A program made the position numbers and the translations under genes. The notes under the pieces were generated by a model that did no database searches, was not told where the DNA came from, and saw nothing but the letters and a program-made list of their open reading frames with translations. Shown here in pieces: positions 229-20,278 of a stretch of 20,566 bases of DNA. This stretch comes from a virus. Numbering within the stretch: the first letter of the stretch is position 1; each line of letters starts with the position of its first letter. The stretch is taken from positions 1-20,566 of IMG/VR virus record IMGVR_UViG_3300027973_000261; one strand, written 5' to 3'.

Positions 229-2214
229 ACTAGTGCAACATTTGATAGTGGTTCTTATGCTACTACAGGTTCAAACACATTTACTGGAGTACAAACATTA
301 ACAAATCAACAATACCCATTATTAATTAACAATCCTGTTAATGGTTCTGGGCAACTTAAATTTGGTTTTAATACAGGCACAACCTGGGCTCAACAAGAAG
401 TACAATTCTTAGGAGATAAAAACTATTTCCAATCAAATGGTGATTTAACGTTTGAAGGTACTTTAGCTGGTGCTACAGGCAGTATTACATTTACATCAGG
501 TAAAGATATTGCTTTACAAGCACCTGGTACTATATCGGCTAATAATCAAATAACTATTAATAGTTATAAAGGTTTTATTGTAAATGATAATACATATACA
601 GCATATGCTGGTGTTGACTTTTATACAGGTGGTACAGGTACTCAAGCACAATTTACATCAACCGCAGATAAAACATATATACAATCTAAAAATGATTTAT
701 ATATTAATTCAAATAATGGTGGTTCTACAACTGGTTCAATATATGCAACATCAAATAAAGATTTGTTATTAAAAGCTATTAGTGGTACAACTACTGTAAC
801 ATCATCAATAGTTAGTGTTATTTCTCCATCGGTTGCTATTAACTCACCATCTGTTAGAATAACAGGTAGTTTAATTTCATCTGGTTCATTAACTGAAATT
901 GGTAACGTAACAGTTCAAAACCCAAATATGTCACTTACGTATAATAACGTATCTTCATCATATGGTGGTAATGTGTTATTTGGATGGGATGGTATATTGG
1001 CGGGAGAAGCAACTTCAACTGGTTCATATGTAATTAGTGGTTCAAATAATATACTTGCAGTTACTAAACCAAGATCAGCAGTTGGCTTATACAATTATGT
1101 AAGTGGTTCATCAAACATTATGTTAGGTGGTACAATAGCAATGACAACAGCGTCACTTTTAAGACCTGTTACAAGTAATAACATTATAAATTTTGGTCAA
1201 ACAACACTTTATTTCCAATCATCATCAGTAGCTGGCGGACAACCAAGTTATCAAAACAATATTTTAAATCAGACTTTCGTTGCTGATATGGGTGTTAGTG
1301 GATCTTTAACGGCCACAGGTAATATTGTAAATGGTGCAACTTCTATATATCAAACAGGTTCAGCAATTGCTAACTTAAGATCAACATTTAATGCTAATAA
1401 CATTAACTCTACATTCTTTGTACAAAACTATGTAAGTAGTTCATTTACAGTAAATAACAACAATACTGTAGGTGCAACACATTATATTGACAATTATTGG
1501 GTAAATGGATTTGGTACCGCTGGTATTACAGCAAGTAGAAACTTCTATCAAGGTCAAGCAAACTTTATTACTTTTTCAGGTTCACCTTCTTCAAATACGT
1601 CTCGTGCAGTTAGTGACAACTTTTTAGGTGGTAACACAGTTAATATAAACGCAATTGTTAGTGGTTCAAATGCTGGTAACTCTTATGCTACAATAATATA
1701 TGGTTACAATTTACAAGCAAACGCAACAGCAACAGGTATATCTGGTGGTTCAGCATTTTTAGGTAGGTTTAATGACACAGGATCTTTTGCTAATACAAGT
1801 GATATTGTATTCGCTGTAGGTACTGGTACAGCTGCTGCAACAAGAAGAAATGGTCTTACAATTGATACTGGTTCAAACGTACTTGTATCTGGTTCGTTTA
1901 ACGTAAGTGGTAGTGCAACATTTAGTGGTACAGCATTTGCTGTTAATAATAACGCATCTTTTGGTACAGTTAATATGAATGCCACTGGTTCAGGTGCTCA
2001 AATGAACTTAAGATCAGTAGCAGTAACAGTATCTGGTTCTAATACAATTTCATTGAATAGCACAAATACTAACGTAACTGGTTCACTTAAACTTGCAAAC
2101 GTTATGAATTTAAGAGGTCAAGATCCATTACCAGCGGGAACAATCGGAGATTTAGCAGTGTCTTCGTCAAACAAACTTTACTTCTATAACGGTGCTTGGA
2201 CATTAATTGTATAA
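1..2214 (+). CDS. Collagen-like, beta-rich tail fibre (5' end outside window)
   Basis: The reading frame is open from base 1, so the gene starts upstream; 737 codons are visible. Residues 1-76 are Gly-X-Y triplets made of Ser, Thr and Ala (SGTSGSSG type), a collagen-like stalk without proline. The remainder is rich in Gly/Ser/Thr/Asn with recurring GSL..xG, VSGS and TGS turns, as expected for a beta-helical or beta-prism trimeric fibre. The C-terminus (LRGQDPLPAGTIGDLAVSS, then KLYFYNGAWTLIV) is a tip signature I recognise from aquatic phage fibres. No enzymatic motif is visible. The gene is followed after one base by the gp10-like gene. Likely role: an extracellular adhesin contacting the host surface. 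An internal GTG at 184 is not a credible start because the repeat continues upstream of it. Confidence 0.8.
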   Translation, partial: TSGTSGTSGSSGNGSSGSSGTAGTSGSSGNGTSGSSGTAGTSGSSGIDGSSGTAGTSGSSGVNGSSGSSGTAGSSGTSATFDSGSYATTGSNTFTGVQTLTNQQYPLLINNPVNGSGQLKFGFNTGTTWAQQEVQFLGDKNYFQSNGDLTFEGTLAGATGSITFTSGKDIALQAPGTISANNQITINSYKGFIVNDNTYTAYAGVDFYTGGTGTQAQFTSTADKTYIQSKNDLYINSNNGGSTTGSIYATSNKDLLLKAISGTTTVTSSIVSVISPSVAINSPSVRITGSLISSGSLTEIGNVTVQNPNMSLTYNNVSSSYGGNVLFGWDGILAGEATSTGSYVISGSNNILAVTKPRSAVGLYNYVSGSSNIMLGGTIAMTTASLLRPVTSNNIINFGQTTLYFQSSSVAGGQPSYQNNILNQTFVADMGVSGSLTATGNIVNGATSIYQTGSAIANLRSTFNANNINSTFFVQNYVSSSFTVNNNNTVGATHYIDNYWVNGFGTAGITASRNFYQGQANFITFSGSPSSNTSRAVSDNFLGGNTVNINAIVSGSNAGNSYATIIYGYNLQANATATGISGGSAFLGRFNDTGSFANTSDIVFAVGTGTAAATRRNGLTIDTGSNVLVSGSFNVSGSATFSGTAFAVNNNASFGTVNMNATGSGAQMNLRSVAVTVSGSNTISLNSTNTNVTGSLKLANVMNLRGQDPLPAGTIGDLAVSSSNKLYFYNGAWTLIV

Positions 2215-2215
2215 T

Positions 2216-2704
2216 ATGGATTTAGAAAAGATCGCACCTATTATTGAGAAGATTATGAAAGATACCTTGGAACAGAAGCGTTATCCATTTGGATTTGCTA
2301 AGTTTAAAGGAACGGGTAATAAGGTTGCGTCTGGTAAATTAAGAGATAGCATTAGTGTTGTAACAAATAAAGTTAATAAAGACGAAACTATCATACAAGT
2401 GTTATCTGCTGAATATGCTCAATGGGTTCAATCTGGAAGATTACCTGGAAAGAAAGGTGTGCCAGTTGACGCATTAGAGAAATGGATTAAAGATCGTGGG
2501 TTAACAGGTAGAGATAAAAAAGGAAGATTCATAAAAAGAAGAAGTTTCGCATTTGCGATACAAAAAAATATAAAGAAATTTGGAATAAGACCTTCCAACT
2601 TTTTGGATGTTGCATTAGAAATGATAGCAGATGATCCAAAGATTATGGATTTAATTGAAGAAGGTTCTTTTGAAGAATTATTAGACTTAATACAAGGAAT
2701 ATAA
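2216..2704 (+). CDS. HK97 gp10-like tail-completion / neck protein
   Basis: A 162-residue basic protein. The pattern fits the HK97-gp10 family of head-tail joining proteins: an N-terminal helix, then SGKLRDSISVV, then a Tyr/Trp-rich strand (AEYAQWVQSGR), a DALEKWIKDRGL helix, and RSFAFAIQKNIKKFGIRPSNF followed by an acidic helical tail. In the family this protein caps the tail or bridges tube and neck. I start it at ATG 2216, one base after the fibre stop, in the context TAATATGG. The frame extends to a TTG at 2207, but that overlaps the fibre and adds only MYN. It is co-transcribed with its neighbours. It is unusual to find a neck gene among fibre and tail-tip genes, far from the portal. Confidence 0.7.
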   Translation: MDLEKIAPIIEKIMKDTLEQKRYPFGFAKFKGTGNKVASGKLRDSISVVTNKVNKDETIIQVLSAEYAQWVQSGRLPGKKGVPVDALEKWIKDRGLTGRDKKGRFIKRRSFAFAIQKNIKKFGIRPSNFLDVALEMIADDPKIMDLIEEGSFEELLDLIQGI

Positions 2705-2706
2705 TT

Positions 2707-4305
2707 ATGGCAACATTTGGTTATCAACGCTTATATAGCAATGGATTAAACAGCAACACGCAAATACGTCGTTCAACTGATATGGTTTACCAACGTGGTG
2801 GAACATATGAAATAGTTTTAACTGGAGATACTTATGCATCTTCAATGGAAATGACTGTGGATTTGTATTCAGATGGTAGTAAGGTTGGCAGAATGTCACT
2901 TGTTCCATATGATGTTGCACAATCAGGAGCAACGTATACATATAGTTTTAATCTAAGGCCGTATAGTTATATGTCAAATTATGTTCAAGCGCAGCATTAT
3001 ACATACTATTGGTTAAACGATTGGTATGCAACTATAAATCAAATAAATTTAAATAACCCGTATCCAAATAGCATAACAGCAAATTTTAAATATGGGTATA
3101 CATATATAAATTCAACTGGAGGAACTGTAACTGAATGGGGTATATATGGTCAAACATCTCCAATTAATAATTTTGATCACTACACAGACATTCCATTATG
3201 TGCAACATCAACTGGGTTTACTGCATCAGGTTTTACCAATACAGGTGGTAATTTTGACTATGTGGGTGGATCTTTCCAAATGCAGGACAAACTAATACTT
3301 CCGAATTTTGATCAAGAATTGGGCACCGTAATAGGCACAGGATTGACAATTAATACTGTTGATAGATTTAGAACTTATAGTCCTATGTCGCAGTACTTAA
3401 TGAACTATCCATCAGTACCAGAGATGAGTGAGAGTGCTAGGTTTTTAACTGACGCACCAAGGATACAATATATACAATCTAACGAAAATTATGTATTATA
3501 TTACTTAAACGGACAGACAGGAGATAGACAAGTTATAGAAGCAGATTACGCAGTATTCCAATTTTATGACGAAAGCAATACTCTAGTTAATACATTTAAC
3601 CAACAATTGAATTTTATTAATACGCCATATGCATCACCAACAGGTTATACAGATACCTTACAAGTGTTCGCATTGCCTTGTGGACCAGTAGATATAGATA
3701 ATTTATTTACAGTAATTGACTGGGATACTGTCGCTTATTATAGAGTACAATTGTTTTATGCTTATCCAACTAACAGCGAATTAAGAAGTAGTTTAGGTCC
3801 AATAGGTCCTGTGTCAGAAGAGTTTTTCTTTTATGTGGATACTAACTGTGGTCCAGAAGATACTCGCCTTGCCTTCTTAAATGACCGTGGTGGCTTTGAT
3901 TACTTTACATTTACGTCATACAGACAAGACACTAAAAAGATAGATAGACAGTCTTATGATTCAAGATATTATGCAACTGATTTACAATCAGCAGATAGGG
4001 ATTTTGGTAGAACAGTTAAGACTTTTGATACGAATATTACACAAGAAATAGTATTAGAGTCAGACTATTTATCTGTACCTATGGCAAACTGGTTAGAACA
4101 ATTATTTACATCACCACAAGTGTATGAAATGAAACCAGACTATATATCTCAAATTGATAGACAAGACAAGATATATAAGGATTTGAGACCTATGCAAGTT
4201 ATATCAACTGAGGTTGAAACAATAACTAAAAAGCATAGAAAACTAAATAAATACAAGATCACACTTAAGTCTGCAGACTCTTACTTTGTAAACAGAGGCT
4301 TCTAA
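2707..4305 (+). CDS. Large tail structural protein (532 aa)
   Basis: A 532-residue soluble protein rich in Tyr, Thr and Asn with no membrane segment or signal peptide. The first ~380 residues look like consecutive beta-sandwich material. Residues ~385-532 form a more conserved-looking end: RLAFLNDRGGFDYFTF, then a region with KKIDRQSYDSRYY, then WLEQLFTSPQVYE, and a Lys-rich stretch ending KITLKSADSYFVNRGF. I recognise this C-terminal pattern (a 'LxxLNxxGGxDyyTF ... wLxxLxxSpxVY' signature) from tail or baseplate-region proteins of Bacteroidota phages, but I cannot name a molecular function. It starts two bases after the gp10-like gene and lies three bases before the 1484-aa gene, so the three are almost certainly one transcript. 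Virion tail component is inferred from these patterns and from context. Confidence 0.6.
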   Translation: MATFGYQRLYSNGLNSNTQIRRSTDMVYQRGGTYEIVLTGDTYASSMEMTVDLYSDGSKVGRMSLVPYDVAQSGATYTYSFNLRPYSYMSNYVQAQHYTYYWLNDWYATINQINLNNPYPNSITANFKYGYTYINSTGGTVTEWGIYGQTSPINNFDHYTDIPLCATSTGFTASGFTNTGGNFDYVGGSFQMQDKLILPNFDQELGTVIGTGLTINTVDRFRTYSPMSQYLMNYPSVPEMSESARFLTDAPRIQYIQSNENYVLYYLNGQTGDRQVIEADYAVFQFYDESNTLVNTFNQQLNFINTPYASPTGYTDTLQVFALPCGPVDIDNLFTVIDWDTVAYYRVQLFYAYPTNSELRSSLGPIGPVSEEFFFYVDTNCGPEDTRLAFLNDRGGFDYFTFTSYRQDTKKIDRQSYDSRYYATDLQSADRDFGRTVKTFDTNITQEIVLESDYLSVPMANWLEQLFTSPQVYEMKPDYISQIDRQDKIYKDLRPMQVISTEVETITKKHRKLNKYKITLKSADSYFVNRGF

Positions 4306-4308
4306 TAT

Positions 4309-7300
4309 ATGGCAAACGAACAACAAACAGTTTTACGCGTACAATTTGATAATGTTAATACCAATACTGGTATAACCGAATATGAATTTTTAGATCTATA
4401 TGGTGATGTTCCTATTAAGATTAATAAATCTTTTGCTGAATTGCAAGATATATCAAAGCGTAACTCTGATTATTCAATTGGTTTAACATTACCTGGAAGC
4501 AAAAAGAACAATAAATTCTTTGAGAACTTCTTTAACGTTGATACTCAATCACTTTATTTTAATGCAACTAAACGTGTTAATTGTCAGGTATTATTAAATG
4601 ATCAAGCATATTTTACTGGTTATTTAAAACTAAATAAAACATCTGTATTAAATTCTAAGGTTGAATATGATGTAACGTTATATTCTACAATAGGCGATTT
4701 ATATGGTCAAATAGGAAATAACCTATTAATTGATTTGAATTATAGTGATACTGAATATAATTTTAATCATACATTTGATCAATATGCTGTAACTAATGAC
4801 TTTAATCGCAACTTATTTTCAGAGAATAGCATATATCCAAATACATATTTTTATCCAATTATTCATAATGGTTATGAATATTCTGGTGACACCGTTAATT
4901 TAAGCGGAGGAACCCCATCAAAGCAAACAAGATTATATACAACATCTGGTACAACTTTAGGAAGTTATGCCACTGCTGCGGCTGCTTATGCGGTTGTAGG
5001 TGAATATAGAATTAACTCACCGTATCAAGGATTAATTGATAATCAATTAAAGCCAGGATTAAGTATATGGAGTTTAATTCAGTTAATATTTAAAACATAT
5101 AATTACACAATTAAATCAGATTTTTTTAACACTCCTTGGTTTAAGGCATTATATATGTATGGTTATTTTAGTAGTGATTCAACTAAGTTTGGTTATTCAA
5201 TTGGTACTATAGCTACATTACCATTAGAGGGTGTTGAATTAGTTCCTTTTGAATTTCCTAGTGGTACTATAAATGTTATTGTATGTAAGTTAGGAACAGG
5301 TATACCTTGTTATTGTTCAAATGATATTACATTTACATTAACAACAGAATATCCATATGAACCAATACAATATGAATCAACACATACAATTACTGCAGGG
5401 TCAACTGGTTATACAGCTGATTTAGTTGGAGATATTTTTATTGGAATTACATCAGATCAGGTAGCAATTGGAACAACATTAAGATATTTTCCACAAGCAG
5501 CAAATACAATTGTACCATATGTAGATGGTGATTTAGTAGATTTTAGCAAAGTTATAAGTCAGGATTTAAAACAAATAGATTTAATTAGCTCAATAGCTAA
5601 GAAGTTTAATTTAGTATTTATTCCAGACCCAGAAAAGTCTAATCAAATTATTATTGAGCCTTATAACTATTATATTGGTACAGGAGATATACATAATTGG
5701 AGTGATAAAATTTCATTTGATAAAGGTTTTACGGTTGAACCTGCCTTAAATTATATTGAGTCTGAATTATTTTTAACAGATCAAGAGGACGGTGATTATG
5801 GTAATAAGACATTTAAAGATTCAAATGCTAGAATATATGGGCAAAATTTGGTATATAATCCAACTGCCTATAAGTCTCAACAAAAGAAAATAGACACAAT
5901 ATTCTCTCCCGAATTTATTAGAACTTGGGATCAAAATATAGCATTACCATTAGGTATAAATTATGTGGGAACATCTCAAGCAAATAACACAGCTGGTGGA
6001 TCTGAGAATCAAACTTGGACATATAAGGGTGTTAGAACTAAACCAAAATTAATGTATTGGTTGGGTGGGTTTAATCCATTCTTAAATATAGTCGGTGAAA
6101 CATTTAGTTTAGCTGATACATATCAAACTTTTTGTGTATATATTTCAACTTCTGATTTAAGTGGTGTAGCTGGTAAATTTCAATATATTCCAGTAATTAG
6201 CCATACAATGCCAATCGGTAATCCAGATAGCAATAAAAAAAATAATGATAGTATTTGTAATTTATTTAATTCAGAACCACCAGCAATAGTTGGAACAACA
6301 TCATCATATAACGTATATACAGAAAATGATGCATATAAATTATTCTATCAAAATAGAGTAGATAATTTATATAACGCTAACACACGTTTTTTAACAGGTA
6401 ATTTTTATTTAAAACTATCTGATATACAAAACCTTAAACCAAATGACCTTATTAAAATTAATGAGCAATACTTCACTTGGAATAAGATTGAAGGGTTTAA
6501 TCTAACTAATACTGAATTAACAAAGGTTGAGTTGATACAAGCTAATAATAATCCAAGCACATATCCAACAAGATATTTTGAGTATTATTATTGTGACGAT
6601 CCAACTAAAATTTATAAGTTTAAAACTGATTTTACAAACGAAAATTTAAGAGATACAAATTATTTCTGGAGTATTTTATATGATTATAATGTCGGTATAT
6701 TAGGTGGTAATGTTTCTGGATTTACAGCGTCATTTGCTGACAATCAAGCTAATGCTATTAAGTATGTTCCATATTTTATGTATGAGGTTTCTGATACAAC
6801 TTATGATACAACTGGTATAGATTGGCAATATGATAGCTTACATAATTATATATATACAATTGGATTTGATCCATTTAATACATACGTTCCTGGGTTTTGG
6901 ATTAATTCTGGATCTACTACTACTGGTTTAAATCTATATTCTAATTGCTCAGGATTTACATCTGCGGCAACAACATATGGTATTGTTACTGGTAGTTCAA
7001 CATATCACGGAGTCATTGCTACACCAACACCAACGCCTACTGCTACAGTAGCACCTACACCAACTCCAACACCTGATATGCTTGGATCGTTATTGATGAG
7101 TTATGACTCATTAGAATTGGGAGATAATTATCAGGTTTCTGTTAATGGAGCATTAAGAACATTGCAATATATTGATTCAAGCAATTTGTATTCAACTTAT
7201 ATATATCCTGGAGATGTTGTTAGAATTACTGGATCAACAATATCACCATATGGTAAAATATGGTCAGTTAATAGAGTGGATTATACAACAGATGATCAAG

Positions 7301-8763
7301 GTGGTGATATGGGTATTAGAACTACAGGTGCTACGTTTACAACTACTATAGTTGATATATATAATACAATTATTGAATTTACTGCCACACCAATTGCTCA
7401 AGATTATAATTTTGAATATTTGGTTGGTTTAATATCTGGTCCAACTGCTACACCAACACCAACTCCTACACCAACAAGTACTCCGACACCAACGCCAACT
7501 AGTACTCCTACACCTACACCAACAAGTAGTCCTACGCCAACGCCAAGTAGTACTGCAACGCCTACTCCAACAACTAGTCCTACGCCAACACCAACTCCAA
7601 CTCCTATATTAACTTATATGAGTATTGGTGGAGGATTTAGTGGCTCAACTAATCCGATACTTGCGGGTATATCGTTTGATAGTGAGATATTAAGTTCAGG
7701 TAAAATTATTATTGGTCACAGATATACATCTTATAGTGGTACATCAGTTTCTACTGTTACAAGATTATTAAATGATGGTACATTAGACACAACATTTATT
7801 ACTTCAGGTGTAACATCAACTGAATCTACATATGATATTAAAGAACAATCTGATGGTAAATTAGTAATCTCAGGTTTAGAGATTGGAGGATTTAACTTAT
7901 ATAGATTAAACTCAGATGGTTCAACTGATACAGGATTTACTCCAACATTAATTTATGGAGGTACGTCATTTAATGAAGAAAGAATTGAACTACAATCTGA
8001 TAATAAAATAATATATGGTAATGATTTTAGTACGGCATATAGTGGTTATACAGGTTTAATGAGATTTAATTCTAATGGTACATTAGATACAACATTTAAT
8101 AGTGGTGGTAGTCAGTTTTCAGGTAGTTATAGTGATAGAGTATATGATATATATGTTTACCCTGATGATAAGATATTAGTTGGTGGTTTATTTAACAAAT
8201 ATAATGGAGTTACTTGTAATGGTTTAATAAAATTAAATTCAAACGGTACGGTGGATACATCATTTAATGTTGACACTACAACAGGTTATACGTTTCCACC
8301 AATGATTTATGATATTGAAGTTCAATCTGATGGTAAGATTTTAGTTGGATTAGGTGATACTACATTTAATAAGAAATATTGGAACATTACAGTTGGTTTA
8401 ATGTGGAGGTTGAACGCTGATGGTACATTTGATAGTTCTTTCCCTTATAATCAATTCTTACCTAATTCAGGTGGAAATGGAGGTATAAATGACATATATC
8501 AAATGACTGACGGTTCATTATTAGTTGGTGGAACTTTTACATCTTATAGTGGAACTTCTGTTAATAATTTAGTAAAATTAAATTCTGATGGTACATTAAA
8601 TACAACATTTACACCGCCAGCAATTAATGGTAGTATATCAGATATTGAAATAACAACTGATGGTGGCGTATTATGTACAGGTACTATGACTCTTTTAGGT
8701 GCACAAACCGCAAGAGGAATAATAAAACTAAATCCAATTAACGGGTCATCTTTGATTACCTAA
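4309..8763 (+). CDS. Giant modular tail-tip protein with Thr-Pro linkers and C-terminal beta-propeller
   Basis: A 1484-residue protein, the largest in the window. Residues 1-~150 resemble the N-terminus of Bacteroidota-phage tail-tip proteins ([20 protein letters not shown], then [13 protein letters not shown] and a [10 protein letters not shown] strand). Residues ~150-900 are beta-rich. A first Thr-Pro linker spans ~905-922. A small beta domain (~923-1044) is followed by a long Thr-Pro/Ser linker (~1045-1099). Residues ~1100-1484 contain seven strands of the DGKilvgG type and six copies of [11 protein letters not shown]-like motifs near residues 1152, 1198, 1251, 1307, 1366 and 1422. This is the delta-60/DUF5122 repeat pattern, expected to fold as a beta-propeller. 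The layout suggests an anchor in the tail tip, flexible spacers and a terminal binding domain. Receptor or glycan binding is inference; no catalytic motif is seen. Confidence 0.72.
7021..7074 (+). repeat. Thr-Pro linker 1 in the 1484-aa protein
   Basis: Encodes a run of TP dipeptides with Ala/Val interruptions ([18 protein letters not shown]). At DNA level it is a degenerate ACACCA/ACTCCA hexamer tandem. It separates the large beta-rich body from a ~120-residue domain and would behave as an extended, stiff but disordered spacer. Confidence 0.85.
7441..7605 (+). repeat. Thr-Pro/Ser linker 2 in the 1484-aa protein
   Basis: About 55 residues of PT/PTP units punctuated by TS, SS and TA steps. 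The DNA is a degenerate 6-base tandem within a longer periodicity of roughly 24-30 bases. It joins the ~120-residue domain to the beta-propeller. Its length and near-identity to the other linkers make it a likely site for slippage or recombination. Confidence 0.85.
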
Positions 8764-8764
8764 T

Positions 8765-8783
8765 AATTTATATTTAATAATAT
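8765..8783 (+). promoter_or_regulatory. AT-rich intergenic motif abutting the 333-aa gene
   Basis: Nineteen bases (AATTTATATTTAATAATAT) directly before ATG 8784. The identical 19-mer occurs at 12238-12256. The core ATATTTAATAAT or a close variant also appears before the genes at 14223, 16058 and 16726. It could be a promoter -10/-7-like element, an AU-rich ribosome standby site, or both. Its position so close to the ATG would imply an almost leaderless mRNA if it were a promoter. Confidence 0.45.
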
Positions 8784-9785
8784 ATGAGAATGAAATACAT
8801 AAAGCAAATAATAAATCAAAACTTTATATTCCCGAACGATAATGTTTCGGAATACGATGTGGAGATTGTGAACGATATAAACAACAATAGCGTATCAGGA
8901 ACCGTAGAAAATTTAACTGCCACAACAGTAAGTTACAGTGCAATTACATTCACGTATGATTGGCAATGGGATAAAAATGGTGCTGAGCCATATATAATGG
9001 ACTCTGGTAAGATTAGTTTAGTATCTGTACATATGTTAGCTTATGGTCAAAATTATTTTAAACCTTGGAGAGTTGTAGATGATATATCAGATTCAACAAC
9101 TGGATTAACAACATATTCTAGTGTTGGTCAATCATTCAGTGTAACACCATCTCAAATGGGGTTATCCGCATTTAGTAATGGTATATATTATTTTGAGTTT
9201 AGATTTATTGGGCATAGAGCAATCTTTCCAGTTTGTGCTCAATTTACTGTTGGAGCAATACCAACACCAACGCCTACTCCTACACCAACGGCAACATCGG
9301 TTCCTCCAACACCTACTCCAACACCAACTGCTGAACCAAATATATATACAACTGGTGCGACATTAAATGTAACTGATACTGGTTGGATTAAATATAATAT
9401 GTCATCAGGACAAACCTATCAAGAAATTACAACAACAGGTACGGTGATATTAACAAACTGTTTAGATTGTTCTTCAATAACTTATGGTTATCCATTTGCA
9501 GATTTGGCAGCATTTACCATAACTAGCTGTGGTTCAAGTTGTACACCTGGTCCAACACCAACTCCAGCTCCAACAGCAACTCCAGATCCAGGATGTACAT
9601 CAACTGAATGGAGAATAGATAATAGCTCATCTGGTTATGATATTTATTGGGCTGGTGATGATTGTAATGGTAATCCAGTTGGCGGAACTGTAGGCGCATA
9701 TCAAATTCAATATACTGGTTGCGTTGCAGATTATACATTAACATATACAGGTTTCCCAACGGTAACAATTGCTGCAATTTGCTAA
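8784..9785 (+). CDS. Cys-rich modular tail protein with Thr-Pro linkers (333 aa)
   Basis: Three beta-rich domains separated by Thr-Pro spacers: residues ~1-158; linker ~160-185; ~186-255; a second short linker at ~256-270; and ~271-333. The second and third domains carry several cysteines (CLDC, CGSSC, GC, DDC, GC and a C-terminal IAAIC), suggesting disulphides or metal binding once the virion is outside the cell. No catalytic motif, signal peptide or membrane segment is visible. Start 8784 is chosen because it follows the AT-rich motif; ATG 8790 is an in-frame alternative two codons later. The linkers match those of the preceding 1484-aa protein in composition and codon pattern, so the two probably share history and location at the tail tip. 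The function is unknown; an accessory adhesin is the best inference. Confidence 0.6.
   Translation: MRMKYIKQIINQNFIFPNDNVSEYDVEIVNDINNNSVSGTVENLTATTVSYSAITFTYDWQWDKNGAEPYIMDSGKISLVSVHMLAYGQNYFKPWRVVDDISDSTTGLTTYSSVGQSFSVTPSQMGLSAFSNGIYYFEFRFIGHRAIFPVCAQFTVGAIPTPTPTPTPTATSVPPTPTPTPTAEPNIYTTGATLNVTDTGWIKYNMSSGQTYQEITTTGTVILTNCLDCSSITYGYPFADLAAFTITSCGSSCTPGPTPTPAPTATPDPGCTSTEWRIDNSSSGYDIYWAGDDCNGNPVGGTVGAYQIQYTGCVADYTLTYTGFPTVTIAAIC
9261..9338 (+). repeat. Thr-Pro linker 1 in the 333-aa protein
   Basis: Encodes two TP runs separated by ATSVPP and ending at AEP. The DNA uses the same ACACCAAC/GCCTACTCC words as the linkers in the upstream gene, giving short direct repeats between two adjacent genes. 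Confidence 0.8.
9549..9590 (+). repeat. Thr-Pro/Ala linker 2 in the 333-aa protein
   Basis: A short linker reading GPTPTPAPTATPDP between two Cys-containing domains. It is shorter and more Ala-rich than the other Thr-Pro linkers in the window. Confidence 0.75.
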
Positions 9786-12237: not shown

Positions 12238-12256
12238 AATTTATATTTAATAATAT
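12238..12256 (+). promoter_or_regulatory. AT-rich intergenic motif abutting the protease gene
   Basis: Exact second copy of the 19-base motif at 8765-8783; the last two bases are the AT of the ATG at 12255. This is the only non-coding sequence between the 42-aa gene and the protease gene. No TTTG -33 element is found at a normal distance upstream, so a standard Bacteroidota promoter is not supported here. Confidence 0.45.
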
Positions 12257-14153
12257 GGTAAAGAACGAAAAAGTATTTGAACTGAGAATTGACGATGAGG
12301 ATGAGTTATCAGGTATTGATAGCATTTCTTTAGTTGATGAACCAGCCATTGAAGTAAATTGGGTGGCGTTCAAAAAAGAAAAACAACAAGATTTTCACAT
12401 TCCTGATGGCGAAGACCAAAAGTACATTGATAGATTAATGGCTATTGCTCAGGACGAACAGGAACTATTTGATGAAGGATGGGTGGTAGATAAAATAACC
12501 ATCGTTGGAGAAGATGAATTTGTTTCAACTAATCCTAATGGCCCATCAATGGAAGATGAAAAAGAATATAATGTACGTTATAAGTATATTTTAAATCCAC
12601 GTATTAAGGGACAAGGAGCCGTAATTCCGACGACTAGAGACTTTTGTAAGTCTTTGATTGCTAAGAATTATGTATGGCGTGTTGAGGATATGGATGCCAC
12701 TCAGAACGATTTTGGCGATAGTGCTATGGTTTGGAGAGGTGGTTACAATTGTAGACACGTATGGTCAAGAATAGAATATAAGAAAGATGCTACGATTATC
12801 AACAAAGCGTCTGTTAATAAGGGTAAAGTAACTATTGGTGGTTTTCCTACTGATATGATTCCTGATACAAGAGTATTAGGATATGATCAACCAGATACCA
12901 CAACAAGTGCTACATTGGCTAATCCTTCGCCATCAACTAAAAAAAATTTAGGATTATCTAAAGTATATGATTTTATTGCTCAAAAGGTTTCTATTGATTA
13001 TGACGATACTCTATCTACTGATCGTGGTAAGGCGCTGGCTAAAAGGCTATTACAAGAAGGGAAAGATGTATCAATAATTACAAGAAGACAATCAGATCAA
13101 TTAGACGAGGTTAGAAAGGTTGCTGATGATTTAGGTATTTCACAAGATAAAGTCCACGCAACGGACGGAAAATTGAAATGGGAGACTATTAAGAAATTAG
13201 GTATAGAAAAACATATTGATAATAACTCAAAAGAATTGGAAGCAATTTCTAAGAACTTGCCAAATGTTGAAACTGAGAAGTTTGACTATGAGGTAGGTGA
13301 TATTGGTGGATATGTTGATCCAGGAGTTTCTGGAAATACAATATCCAAATCTTTAACAAACCCAACAATGTTTGAAAGTTATTCTGATTATCCAGATAGT
13401 GTTAAGAATAATGCCAAGGCTGTGTTAAAATATGCTGAGGAAAATGGATGGGGTTCTTGCGGTACAGACGTAGGAAAACAACGTGCAAATCAATTAGCTA
13501 ATGGCGAACCTATTTCAGAAGATACCATCCGTAGAATGTATTCTTACTTATCAAGACACGCAGGTGATTTAGATAGTTCAAAGGGTTATGGTGACGGTTG
13601 TGGAAAATTGATGTATGATGCTTGGGGTGGTAAAACCGCATTATCTTGGGCTGAAAGTAAGATTAACACATTTGAAAAGGAAAAGATGGGTAAACAAAAG
13701 TTTGCTACAGATGAAGAAAAACGTGTTGTGGTAGGTCCTGCAATGATACCAGATTTAAGAATATTCCGTAAGGATAGCAAAGGCAATCCTTATTATGTGT
13801 ATTTCTCTTCTGATACCATAAAGATGATTGCTGAAAAATATATGCGTAATAAGTACATTGATAACAATGACGAGATGCATAATGGCAAAGCTGTATCTGA
13901 CGTATATGTTATTGAAAGCTGGATTAAAGAAGACGGTCAAGACAAATCTAACAAGTATGGTTATTCTGAGCTACCTGTTGGAACTTGGTTTGTATCAATG
14001 AAAGTAAGGAATGACGAGACCTGGAAAAAGGTTAAAGACGGTTATTTAAACGGGTTTAGTGTGTCTGGTTACTTTGAGGAAGTGGCATCATTCTGTATGG
14101 AAGAGATGTTCCTTAAACAAGTAATTGAAATATTAAACAACGTAAATGACTAA
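12255..14153 (+). CDS. XkdF-like prohead protease with inserted minor-head, HAD-like and WGG modules
   Basis: 632 residues, several times the usual length of an XkdF/Peptidase_S78_2 protein. Residues 1-~45 are a typical XkdF start (VFELRIDDEDELSGIDSISL, then VDEPAIEVNWVAF). Residues ~113-178 carry RDFC...RGGYNCRHVW, the pattern at the end of Mu-F-type minor head proteins. Residues ~240-330 have HAD-like motifs: DYDDT at 248-252, Thr276 after a hydrophobic strand, Lys306/Lys308, and DNN at 322-324. Residues 343-367 resemble the capsid N-terminus. Residues 373-467 hold a phage module (RANQLANGEPIS, RRMYSYLSRH, LMYDAWGG). Residues ~486-615 are the protease core, with His542 in DEMHNG and Ser602 in GFSVSG as candidate catalytic residues. 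It would cleave scaffold and capsid precursors in the procapsid. Which inserted domains remain active is unknown. Confidence 0.78.
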   Translation: MVKNEKVFELRIDDEDELSGIDSISLVDEPAIEVNWVAFKKEKQQDFHIPDGEDQKYIDRLMAIAQDEQELFDEGWVVDKITIVGEDEFVSTNPNGPSMEDEKEYNVRYKYILNPRIKGQGAVIPTTRDFCKSLIAKNYVWRVEDMDATQNDFGDSAMVWRGGYNCRHVWSRIEYKKDATIINKASVNKGKVTIGGFPTDMIPDTRVLGYDQPDTTTSATLANPSPSTKKNLGLSKVYDFIAQKVSIDYDDTLSTDRGKALAKRLLQEGKDVSIITRRQSDQLDEVRKVADDLGISQDKVHATDGKLKWETIKKLGIEKHIDNNSKELEAISKNLPNVETEKFDYEVGDIGGYVDPGVSGNTISKSLTNPTMFESYSDYPDSVKNNAKAVLKYAEENGWGSCGTDVGKQRANQLANGEPISEDTIRRMYSYLSRHAGDLDSSKGYGDGCGKLMYDAWGGKTALSWAESKINTFEKEKMGKQKFATDEEKRVVVGPAMIPDLRIFRKDSKGNPYYVYFSSDTIKMIAEKYMRNKYIDNNDEMHNGKAVSDVYVIESWIKEDGQDKSNKYGYSELPVGTWFVSMKVRNDETWKKVKDGYLNGFSVSGYFEEVASFCMEEMFLKQVIEILNNVND

Positions 14154-14222: not shown

Positions 14223-14978
14223 ATGTCAAATTCAAAAACCGCAATCGCTGAGATTAAAAAATTAATGAAGCAGTTTGGTTTCTTGGCTGATGATGCCGCT
14301 TTAAAGTCTTTCAAATTGGAAGACAATACTATTTTACAAACTTCTGATTTAAAGGTTGGAGAGAAAATCTCTAAGATTAATGAGGCTTTTGAACAAGTAG
14401 TTTTAGAAGATGGTAAATTCAGATTAGTTGAAAACTTTGAAATAGAAGTGGCAAACGGAGAAATTAAATCTGTAAAAGAGATTTTTATTGATGCAAAATT
14501 AGCTGACGGAACAGTAGTTAAAGTTGAAGGTGATACTCTTTTAGAGGGTGCTAAAGTTGTTGTAGTTACCGCAGATGCAGAAATTCCTGCACCAGATGGT
14601 GTACACGAACTTGAGGACGGAACCAAGATTGAAACTAAAGATGGTATTATTGCTAGAGTTGAAGAAGTAATGGTAGATGAAATGCCTAAAGAGGCAGCTC
14701 CAATGGCTCCAGCAAATGACGCACCAGCAACAGAAGGCAAAGAAGTAGAAGTAGAAATGTTAGAAATGTTAAAAGACTTTATAAAGAAAATGTCTGAAAA
14801 AATGTCTAATATGGAAAACAATTACAATTCATTACAAAATGAATTTAAAGCATTCAAGAAAGAACCAGCAGCAAAACCTATTGCTAACGGAAAAACTGAG
14901 AGGTTTAATAATGTTTCAAATGATGATCTAGATGATAAAATATCTATGATTATGGCAATGAGAAACTCAAACAAATAA
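14223..14978 (+). CDS. Scaffold-like acidic protein with DGT repeats
   Basis: A 251-residue acidic protein between protease and capsid genes, the position of a scaffold. The N-terminal ~150 residues hold tandem short beta repeats (KLEDNTILQTSDLKVGEKI; KLADGTVVKVEGDTLLEGAK; ELEDGTKIETKDGIIARVEE). A Pro/Ala-rich acidic linker follows (PKEAAPMAPANDAPATEG). Residues ~175-215 are a coiled coil (EMLEMLKDFIKKMSEKMSNM). The C-terminus is charged, ending MIMAMRNSNK, which could be the capsid-binding helix. The role inferred is to guide capsid assembly and then be degraded by the upstream protease. No catalytic residues are visible. An antisense open frame over this gene is a mirror of its composition and is not a gene. 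Confidence 0.65.
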   Translation: MSNSKTAIAEIKKLMKQFGFLADDAALKSFKLEDNTILQTSDLKVGEKISKINEAFEQVVLEDGKFRLVENFEIEVANGEIKSVKEIFIDAKLADGTVVKVEGDTLLEGAKVVVVTADAEIPAPDGVHELEDGTKIETKDGIIARVEEVMVDEMPKEAAPMAPANDAPATEGKEVEVEMLEMLKDFIKKMSEKMSNMENNYNSLQNEFKAFKKEPAAKPIANGKTERFNNVSNDDLDDKISMIMAMRNSNK

Positions 14979-15005: not shown

Positions 15006-15983
15006 ATGAAAATTTTATCAAGAGAACAATTCGCATATGACGTATCAACTATCGGTGGATATGTTGACCAAGTTGGTGGTGAATTATTATCAAAAGCACT
15101 TATTGGTGCAACAACTCCTAAATACGTAAATGTACGTTTAGGTATTAAAGGTACTCAAGCATTGAACTTACTTAACTCAACTGCTTACTTCCAAGACGGA
15201 ACTTGTGGATGGAATCCATCTGGTACAACAACTTATACTCAACACAATATCACAACTTGTGCAGAGAAATACAATGAAGCACTTTGTTACAAAGATCTAT
15301 TTGACACTTATCAGTCAATGTTGATGGCTCCAGGTCAAACTCAAGAATCTGTTCCATTTGAACAACAAATCGCTGATTTAAAAGTTAAGCAAATTCAACA
15401 AAGAATTGAGCAACAATTATGGCAAAACACAACCGCTGGTGGTGGATGTTTTAATGGTTTCGCTTTGTTAATTTCTCAATCAACTGGTAACACTTATGCA
15501 AGTGCAGTAGCATCTTCTAGTGGTACAACTTTCTCAAGTTCTGCTGCTTACGGTGTATCTGGTAACCCAATCACTGAGATTGACAAATTAATTAACGTAT
15601 TAGATGACAACGCAATGAGCCGTGAGGACTTAAGAGTGTTTATGTCTTATGCTAACTTCAGATTATATGTTCAAGCGTTAACTCGTGCTAACTTCTTCCA
15701 AAACTATATCGGTTCAACTGATATTACTGGAATGATGGAAGCAACTCAACCAAACACTAACGTTAAAGTAATCCCTACAATTGGTTTGAACGGTTCTAAC
15801 CAAGTTGTAATCGGACCTGCTGAATATATGGTAGTTGGTTTTGACTTGTTATCAGATCACGAAAAATTAGTTATCTGGTATTCTAAAGATTTTGATGAAT
15901 TGAGATTACGTGCAAACTACAACTATGGTGCGACTATCGCAACATTTGGTACAACCAAGTATTTTGCAACTAACGGATTATAA
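15006..15983 (+). CDS. Major capsid protein (HK97-fold, probable)
   Basis: 325 residues with the size, composition and position of an HK97-fold major capsid protein. A helical N-arm (MKILSREQFAYDVSTIGGYV) is followed by a Cys/Thr-containing loop region, a helix (PFEQQIADLKVKQIQQRIEQ), a Ser/Gly-rich loop, a spine-like helix with AMSREDLRVFMSYANFRLYV, and a C-terminal beta part (PAEYMVVGFDLLSDHEKLVI; RANYNYGATIATFGTTKYF). The codon choice (AAC, TTC, ATC, CGT) is visibly more selective than in its neighbours, suggesting high expression. The leader is A-rich with no Shine-Dalgarno. No long N-terminal delta domain is seen, consistent with a separate scaffold gene just upstream. A hairpin lies 15 bases after the stop. 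Confidence 0.78.
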   Translation: MKILSREQFAYDVSTIGGYVDQVGGELLSKALIGATTPKYVNVRLGIKGTQALNLLNSTAYFQDGTCGWNPSGTTTYTQHNITTCAEKYNEALCYKDLFDTYQSMLMAPGQTQESVPFEQQIADLKVKQIQQRIEQQLWQNTTAGGGCFNGFALLISQSTGNTYASAVASSSGTTFSSSAAYGVSGNPITEIDKLINVLDDNAMSREDLRVFMSYANFRLYVQALTRANFFQNYIGSTDITGMMEATQPNTNVKVIPTIGLNGSNQVVIGPAEYMVVGFDLLSDHEKLVIWYSKDFDELRLRANYNYGATIATFGTTKYFATNGL

Positions 15984-17102: not shown

Positions 17103-18461
17103 ATGAGTGAAATAAAAAAATCAGAATTTCAAAAGATTAAATTCCAGACCGCATCGGTTCCAGTATATTCAGAGGTATTACAAAGAGTACCGTGGGTATA
17201 TTATGGTGATAATAACTTACTTCCAAATTACTTTATACAACTATATGACAACTGTGCAATACACAAAGCCGTTGTTACATCTAAGGTAAATCAGATTTTG
17301 GGTGATGGATTAGTATCTTTAAACAATCCAATGGCAACAGTTAATCTAATTAATAAGAGAGAAAACGTTACCGAAGTAATGAAAAAAGCTACTTTAGACT
17401 TTATGTTATTTGGTGGCTTTGCATTAAATGTTATTTGGACTAAGGATAAAAAACAGATTGCTGAGATATATCACCTAGATTTTTCTAGAATTAGAAGTGG
17501 TAAATTAAACGATAAGGATGAAATAGAATGCTATTATTACTGTCCAGATTGGAAACAAGTAAGAAAGTTTCCACCAGAAGAATATACAGCATTTAACCAA
17601 GAAACAGGTGGTAGTCAAATATTTTATTTTAAATGCTATCAACCTAATTTAACATACTATCCAATCCCTGACTGGTCTGCTGGTCAAAGAGCAATTGAGA
17701 TAGATATTGAAGCTAAGAATTTCCATATGAATAACCTACGTAAAGGTATGGTTCCATCATTATGGATTAACTATAATAATGGTATTCCTGGTGAGGAAGA
17801 ACAAAGAACATTGGTTCGTGCTTTAGAAGAGCAATATGGTGGAACAGATAATGCTGGCCAAGCCATTATTTCATTCAATGAAAGCCAAGAACAATCACCA
17901 GTAATTACACAAATTCCAAGAAACGATAATGACAATTATTATCAATCATTAAACGATGACATTACAAGATCTATCTTATCCGCACATAGAGTTTCTAGTG
18001 CTGAGTTATTTGGTATTGCTACCGCTGGTAAATTGGGTGGAGGCAATGAGATTGTTGAGCATTCTGAATATTTCCGTAAGATGGTTATTCAACCGTATCA
18101 AAACGAAATTCTCCCAGCATTTAGCAAATTGGTTTCATTAAAATTTGATAAACCAACTACATTTGAAGTTAAACCTTTATCATTATTCTTAACAGGTGAT
18201 GTTAAAGAAAACCCTATAGTTGATGACAAACCAGTAACACCAGTTTTAGTTGGTGAACCAGAAGGAGAACAACAATTAATCAATGAAAATATCAAGAAAT
18301 TATCTGGTAGAGAATACCAGGGTTTATTGAGAATTGTAAGAGAATATAATAAAGAAAAAATAAACCGTATGCAAGCGGCGCAAATGTTAATGGCAGGTTA
18401 TGGATTAACAGAAGAACAATGCAATGCGTGGTTAGGCGAAGAAGAAATAAATTATAACTAA
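17103..18461 (+). CDS. Portal protein
   Basis: A 452-residue protein that would form the dodecameric DNA-entry channel at the capsid vertex. Features fit phage portals: an N-terminal PWVYYGDNNLLPNYFIQLYD opening, a helical stem region (KATLDFMLFGGFALNVIW), FSRIRSG, a YYPIPDW loop, IDIEAKNFHMNNLRKGMVPS, and ILSAHRVSSAELFGIATAGK followed by KLGGGNEIVEHSEYF. The C-terminal tail from residue 400 (LSGREYQGLLRIVREYNKEK; MLMAGYGLTEEQCNAWLG) is a signature I associate with Bacteroidota-phage portals. It is tightly packed, two bases after the 124-aa gene and two before the connector. It lies downstream of the capsid gene, opposite to the usual order, and no terminase is found in the window. Confidence 0.85.
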   Translation: MSEIKKSEFQKIKFQTASVPVYSEVLQRVPWVYYGDNNLLPNYFIQLYDNCAIHKAVVTSKVNQILGDGLVSLNNPMATVNLINKRENVTEVMKKATLDFMLFGGFALNVIWTKDKKQIAEIYHLDFSRIRSGKLNDKDEIECYYYCPDWKQVRKFPPEEYTAFNQETGGSQIFYFKCYQPNLTYYPIPDWSAGQRAIEIDIEAKNFHMNNLRKGMVPSLWINYNNGIPGEEEQRTLVRALEEQYGGTDNAGQAIISFNESQEQSPVITQIPRNDNDNYYQSLNDDITRSILSAHRVSSAELFGIATAGKLGGGNEIVEHSEYFRKMVIQPYQNEILPAFSKLVSLKFDKPTTFEVKPLSLFLTGDVKENPIVDDKPVTPVLVGEPEGEQQLINENIKKLSGREYQGLLRIVREYNKEKINRMQAAQMLMAGYGLTEEQCNAWLGEEEINYN

Positions 18462-19969: not shown

Positions 19970-20278
19970 ATGAGATTAGATCAAATTATCAAGATCAGGT
20001 TGGAAACAAATAAAAGTAGCAAACCAAAGAATATGGACATAGAACCTAATCCTTGTTGGGATGGTTATGAGCCAATTGGGTTACAACCTGATGGATCACC
20101 AAATTGTGTTCCGATTAAAGAAGAACAAAGAACCATTAAAGATGGGTTCCCAATTCCTTCACCAGAAAAAGACGAGTTACAAGACAAATACATAAGTCGT
20201 TGTATTGCCGCCATATCTGACGAATACGACACTGAACAAGCATCAGGTATATGTTATTCCCAGTGGGAAAAGAAGTAG
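19970..20278 (+). CDS. Small four-cysteine protein with phage head-protein tail motifs
   Basis: 102 residues. After a basic helix (MRLDQIIKIRLETNKSSKPK) it carries NPCWDGYEPIGLQPDGSPNC (Cys29, Cys46) and then YISRCIAAISDEYD...ASGICYSQW (Cys78, Cys95). I know both motifs mainly as short modules attached to larger portal, protease or capsid-related phage proteins; here they form a free-standing protein. Paired cysteines might form a zinc site or disulphides. It is the last gene of the unit, 23 bases before the terminator hairpin. Function unknown. Confidence 0.6.
   Translation: MRLDQIIKIRLETNKSSKPKNMDIEPNPCWDGYEPIGLQPDGSPNCVPIKEEQRTIKDGFPIPSPEKDELQDKYISRCIAAISDEYDTEQASGICYSQWEKK

Follow-up and report, generated by a model that had tools for sequence, protein, structure and literature searches.

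The stretch of phage DNA analyzed here (the window; all 20,566 nucleotides of IMG/VR virus record IMGVR_UViG_3300027973_000261) encodes an XkdF-type prohead protease whose first strand and protease core are separated by a long insert, and comparison with its relatives shows that the loop between these two parts accepts exchangeable modules. Within the insert lies a short peptide with a close counterpart in the N-arm of the major capsid protein (MCP) encoded by the same phage. We suspect that the loop is an acceptor for exchangeable head cargo and that the N-arm-like peptide docks the protease in the procapsid, an interpretation that we favor while judging it just short of probable. To our knowledge, the recruitment of prohead proteases into the procapsid before shell closure is poorly understood outside T4 and HK97, and a peptide that only the protease and the capsid N-arm have in common makes such recruitment directly testable.

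The protease gene and the two parts of its fold lie as follows.

12255..14153, + strand: protease ORF, 632 aa, ATG start (ORF call; PF14550 at residues 485-607)
12255..12380, + strand: residues 1-42, holding the XkdF N-terminal strand (alignment with the beginning of P12024L_01)
13683..14075, + strand: XkdF protease core, residues 477-607 (PF14550; likely catalytic His542 and Ser602 or Ser604)

Judged by its profile match and its conserved His and Ser residues, the ORF is a Peptidase_S78_2/XkdF-type protease. PF14550 is the single Pfam family above cutoff in the 632-aa protein and covers residues 485-607 only (E 7e-18; 65.3 bits, cutoff 24). UniProt lists members of the group under 'XkdF'. In the alignment of relatives H542 is nearly invariant and GFSVSG is retained in the rows that reach that far; we infer that Ser602 or Ser604 is the acting Ser of the presumed active site. 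The N-terminal strand (GIDSISLVDEPA, at about residues 20-42) matches GVYALSVVKSPA in the XkdF protein of Nonlabens phage P12024L, where the core comes directly after the strand, and the order in halovirus HHTV-2 gp38 is strand, short spacer, core. An earlier note made from the sequence of the window had proposed that a multidomain insert splits the protease and that related XkdF proteins usually run from strand to core directly. The second claim is borne out by P12024L. So is the first: since P12024L joins strand and core directly and HHTV-2 gp38 does so via a short spacer, the insert of about 435 residues (about 43-478) is real, and we regard the anatomy of the split protease as firm. At least 566 IMG/VR stretches encode a relative of the protease, and the same strand/insert/core gene recurs in many IMG/VR contigs, so the split gene is not a chance occurrence. 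A chimera of domains, or an artefact of metagenomic assembly, would fit with the close relatives all being metagenomic contigs, none of them confirmed among 84,980 species genomes; given that the same architecture appears with open frames in many independent samples, this explanation is so improbable that we give it almost no weight.

An AlphaFold model of the protease built on 26 relatives (mean pLDDT 65, pTM 0.32) has separate domains for the HAD region (244-342), the WGG module (375-476) and the core, with low-confidence stretches at 33-48, 86-98, 179-241 and 344-373. Residues 1-45 have pLDDT values of 40-68, and because of the low overall scores we do not read the packing of strand 21-27 on the core from this model. 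Packing of residues 1-45 on the core is instead a putative arrangement, suggested by the contiguous layout in P12024L and HHTV-2 and by the joint retention of strand and core in relatives. A sequence search of solved structures with the protease gave no match of weight, and in the VIA comparison of the model the match list was taken up by the HAD domain. In BFVD, the structures matched include A0A6J5KKZ6 and A0A6J5PDS7 from uncultured phages, which are named for Zeta-toxin or ParB/sulfiredoxin domains, hinting at further fusions.

The three modules that the earlier note had named in the insert are all present.

12393..12788, + strand: portal/minor-head tail module, residues 47-178, with RDFC ... 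GGYNCRH (PHROG 33693; hhalign)
12789..12974, + strand: linker, residues 179-240, low-confidence and probably disordered (pLDDT <50 at 179-241)
12975..13289, + strand: HAD phosphatase-like domain, residues 241-345 (VIA-align; motif residues)
13377..13682, + strand: helical WGG module, residues 375-476 (PHROG 2859; pLDDT mostly 75-87)

Two features go beyond what was noted earlier: a fourth element of the insert, the peptide at residues 343-356 that recurs at the capsid N-terminus, and the mosaic nature of the insert, which differs between near-identical relatives.

The first module carries RDFC at residues 128-131 and GGYNCRH at 162-168, and matches positions 424-522 of PHROG 33693, a portal family. 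Its homologues include the C-terminal extension of the portal in P12024L (hhalign E 3e-13 over 107 columns; tblastn E 7e-8) and the tail of gp30, whose gene follows the portal gene in Pelagibacter phage HTVC026P (hhalign E 2e-11 over 53 columns). The window's own portal (17103-18461, 452 aa) matches only positions 6-335 of PHROG 33693, and thus it is the protease that carries the module here and not the portal, whereas P12024L bears it on the portal and HTVC026P on gp30. Because of this homology to a portal extension and a portal-adjacent protein, the earlier description of the region as minor-head-like is fair; the MuF family itself (PF04233) gave no Pfam match there up to E 1. Against Mu gpF as a single-sequence template, hhalign gave a probability of 1.6%, with GWNCRC of gpF aligned to GGYNCRH of the protease and NCRC/NCRH in register, a suggestive likeness. 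In HTVC026P gp30 (1757-3583 of its record), the RDLC ... GGYNCRH tail is followed by a region with an HExxH motif.

The HAD-like assignment made earlier stands as well. The top structural match of residues 241-345 is the 3'-phosphatase of T4 Pnkp (5uj0_B; VIA Z 12.2, rmsd 2.3 over 102 residues, 19% identity), and universal stress proteins reach a VIA Z of 12.0. With these nearly as close, the motifs are needed and decide for HAD: D248 and D250 in the DxDxT motif (DYDDT, residues 248-252), T276, K306/K308 and D322, all kept in relatives that have the module. Fold and motifs together support the placement of this predicted domain in the HAD superfamily. That it has nucleic-acid 3'-phosphatase activity is our guess from the model; the T4 enzyme shares its fold and DxDxT motif, and the window's domain differs in lacking a kinase domain and in being embedded in a protease. 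The WGG module has no Pfam match; it matches PHROG 2859 and is also found in head proteins of widely differing viruses, including the HGTV-1 prohead protease, the HRTV-28 portal and a feature of Roseobacter phages annotated as a capsid protein.

The behavior of the insert among relatives is what identifies the loop as an exchange slot. Three scans of viral contigs yielded a sample of 187 sequences, including the window and a few annotated records; 88 of its 122 distinct protease ORFs bear the N-terminal strand, the remainder being mostly contig fragments. The earlier note had reckoned with the possibility that close homologues all share the window's layout. They do not: 22 module architectures occur among the 74 environmental relatives placed on a tree built from protease core and capsid body. 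These architectures need at least 39 changes on the tree compared with a mean of 49 for shuffled labels, and module arrangement is therefore only partly tied to ancestry. The portal-tail-like and WGG modules are nearly constant, and the HAD domain is replaced or joined by a helical domain (ICPGAQxxFxHL), a Cys-rich module (CGNCAFF), a TEDGKLYEGPTH module, zinc ribbons, short PNCVP modules or DUF3721 (PF12518, above the Pfam cutoff in relative L010). Different cassettes are found in pairs whose cores are 100% (L169/L166), 98.7% (L088/L086) and 96.8% (L148/L083) identical. The window and L060 share 91% of core residues, with HAD in the former and the Cys module in the latter. DNA identity between such relatives stops and restarts at the slot edges. 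The upstream edge is the end of the 179-240 linker (GLSK), as in L088/L086, where the breaks fall at GLSKEKF upstream and at EDMGYD, within the peptide, downstream; in other pairs the breaks coincide with the peptide or with the beginning of WGG.

Several observations concern the modules outside this arrangement. Three relatives (L034, L043 and L125) have no portal-tail module in the protease and none elsewhere in their partial contigs, and relocation of the module when it is absent from the protease was thus not seen. The HAD module of L125 (5926-7338; DYDGTLDT, NGRPKSDTL) is quite unlike the window's in sequence, a divergence which suggests that HAD domains may have been acquired independently in the same slot. 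In L044-L050 and L054, a HAD module, mostly with WGG, stands ahead of an apparently different, HK97-type prohead protease, from which it follows that these modules have been joined to head proteases more than once. An ORF of 102 aa in the window (19970-20278) combines a SRCIAAISDEYDTEQASGICYSQW module with an NPCWDGYEPIGLxxDGSPNCVPI module, and the latter is also a protease insert in L016, L034 and L130.

The remaining features belong to the capsid genes and to the peptide that the MCP shares with the protease.

13281..13322, + strand: capsid-N-arm-like peptide FDYEVGDIGGYVDP, protease residues 343-356 (own-record search; linker HMM)
14223..14978, + strand: probable scaffold protein, 251 aa, encoded by its own ORF (lies between protease and MCP in relatives)
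15006..15983, + strand: major capsid protein, HK97 fold, 325 aa (Foldseek E 1.6e-10; VIA Z 16.2)
15030..15071, + strand: N-arm copy of the peptide FAYDVSTIGGYVDQ, MCP residues 9-22 (own-record search; linker HMM)

The capsid protein aligns with HK97 (1ohg) over 261 residues at the VIA score listed, and the N-terminal 31 residues of its model are of low confidence. It matches only PHROG 11320, a family without an assigned function, and in a sequence search the capsid profile retrieved nothing of weight from among solved structures. The scaffold-like ORF had no family match of weight and resembles the C-terminal part of P12024L_01 by eye.

When the protease was searched against its own record with no pattern in hand, the second match fell in ORF 15006-15983 (E 3e-4). 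The typical form of the shared peptide is [FML]GYDVxx[IL]xxYVD, and exactly one copy is present in each of the 88 complete strand-bearing proteases (84 by regular expression and four diverged copies by eye). Its place varies: it precedes WGG in most proteases, follows WGG just before the core in L034, L079, L083, L161 and L163, and precedes the helical module in L106, L112 and L168. Across 49 capsid proteins there is no variation at F9, Y11, V13 and D21 and almost none at I16 and Q22. The capsid-invariant positions are also kept in the protease linkers, where the pattern used for selection fixes several of them, and a fairer test was therefore to search 4,251 non-redundant ORFs with a linker HMM made from 85 distinct protease linkers. 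At E<1 it recovered 140 matches in proteases, 107 in MCPs (best 2.4e-6) and three in two protease fragments; beyond these there was one match at E 0.96, and the next, unrelated, had E 11. The scaffold-like ORF lacked the peptide in this search, and tblastn with the short query found none in cultured phages.

The resemblance is not uniform, as some linkers are of a YDNxLPxYVDE type less like the N-arm. Linkers score higher with the N-arm of their own phage than with foreign ones (35.7 vs 34.0; permutation p 4e-4), but no covariation beyond ancestry was found (partial Mantel r 0.036, p 0.095) and independent pairs were uninformative, and so we do not use this excess as evidence. Recent gene conversion from the MCP has left no sign, in that the peptide codons are no closer to the phage's own MCP (0.518) than to foreign MCPs (0.511).

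A plainer view of the peptide is that it is a flexible spacer that also serves as a homology anchor for cassette exchange, with the modules as passengers lacking any function in the head. Breakpoints in the DNA of exchanged cassettes do lie at or beside the peptide in several pairs, cassettes are often replaced even where the cores are identical, and the HAD and WGG modules are found in other proteins too. Synonymous codon identity, however, is 0.60 in the motif and 0.51-0.57 elsewhere; synonymous sites thus vary nearly freely, the constraint acts on the protein sequence, and a DNA-level anchor is unlikely as the main cause of the peptide. A spacer need not resemble a capsid N-arm, the frames are open in all 88 complete genes, and the HAD motif residues persist wherever the module does, all of which makes the passenger view quite improbable.

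We return to the docking interpretation, according to which the peptide would imitate the capsid N-arm and so dock the protease inside the growing procapsid. Its binding site would be the partner of the N-arm itself, be it the C-terminus of the scaffold or a groove in the shell's inner surface, and docking would enclose the protease and its attached modules as the shell forms. With less assurance, the modules, tethered by flexible linkers, may be head cargo acting during DNA packaging or after ejection, and the cargo in the window may be a 3'-phosphatase-like enzyme for nucleic-acid ends. In favor of this interpretation are the pattern-free match, the restriction of the HMM matches to proteases and MCPs, the single copy kept despite its varying place, the capsid-invariant positions retained in the linkers and the protein-level constraint. 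The identical cores with different cassettes and the breakpoints at the slot edges favor it as well, as does P12024L, whose protease lacks the peptide and has a scaffold-like part fused to it. The missing covariation and the less N-arm-like linkers count against it, as does Rhizobium phage RHph_TM16, whose protease is apparently not fused to the ORF that follows it and yet has no peptide. A rule that a separate scaffold implies the peptide was accordingly dropped: P12024L fits it and RHph_TM16 does not.

Also weighing against docking is that much of the same evidence could be explained if the peptide were the protease's own cleavage site, such that a self-cut frees the module-bearing part from the core and the MCP N-terminus is trimmed as well. 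A comparable case is T4 gp21, for which a single short motif marks the cutting sites in many head proteins. This motif is L/I-x-E, with cleavage after it, and the same protease removes the T4 capsid-targeting propeptides (PMC9026906); several linkers here read [IL]xx[YF]VDE. The peptide is common to the protease and the capsid N-terminus and to no other ORF family in the linker HMM search, and it lies in a low-confidence and probably exposed stretch of both models (344-373, next to the HAD domain, in the protease). On the other hand, the conserved stretch is about 14 residues long, well beyond the requirement of a T4-type site, and the scaffold-like ORF, a usual substrate, does not have the peptide. 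A cut would sever the first strand of the protease from its core, and the invariance of the N-arm at several positions is more what one would expect of a part with a structural or binding role than of a tail to be discarded. We therefore consider a cleavage site unlikely, though it deserves to be taken seriously.

Docking through a short shared peptide would have precedents. In P22 the scaffold C-terminus contacts D14, E15 and E18 of the coat N-arm (PMC9965877), so that the N-arm is a docking site inside the procapsid; the window differs in having a second protein with an N-arm-like peptide, for which such a contact is putative. In T4 a stretch of ten residues is enough to direct cargo proteins to the inside of the head (PMC9026906). 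If docking is correct, the window's peptide would likewise take variable cargo into the head, but the T4 capsid-targeting sequence is N-terminal on an internal protein, whereas this peptide is N-arm-like, borne by the protease and internal between modules. It may thus work like a capsid-targeting sequence without being one. The nearest cultured or annotated relative, P12024L_01, shares the N-terminal strand, the protease core and the place before the capsid gene, and has neither the roughly 435-residue insert nor the capsid-like peptide. Its protease and scaffold-like region form one polypeptide (179-1228 of the record), which in the window are separate ORFs.

The proteases also resemble the polyvalent proteins of phages, multidomain proteins with shuffled enzyme domains, some of them fused to MuF or portal proteins (Iyer et al. 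2017, PMC5512222). By the 22 architectures among 74 phages, the protease group is itself multidomain with shuffled domains. It differs from the fusions of that survey in that the carrier is a head protease and the modules occupy an internal loop; the survey does not mention XkdF, and prohead protease appears only in one of its references. XkdF proteases, HAD phosphatases, portal/minor-head fusions and polyvalent proteins are thus all known already. No account of an exchange slot in XkdF, or of a prohead protease bearing a peptide like a capsid N-arm, turned up in searches of the full-text literature, with most subscription papers outside their scope. There is a fair possibility that the peptide represents a novel type of addressing signal. 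The fuller claim is possible but somewhat doubtful, namely that a single-copy likeness of the N-arm constitutes a new kind of capsid-addressing signal that enrolls exchangeable enzymes, with the loop as the cargo port of a large uncultured phage group. Should the peptide indeed direct cargo into the head, it would offer a short tag with which enzymes could be loaded into HK97-fold shells, and the contents of the exchange slot would form a natural catalogue of the cargo that phages select. The group is common in environmental viromes, as the IMG/VR matches attest, yet its MCP had no tblastn match in 50,697 phage records.

Elsewhere in the window, the structural ORFs contain long low-complexity stretches (184-2214 and 4309-9785), with GSSGTSG repeats at the start of 184-2214 and TPTPTP repeats in the rest of them.
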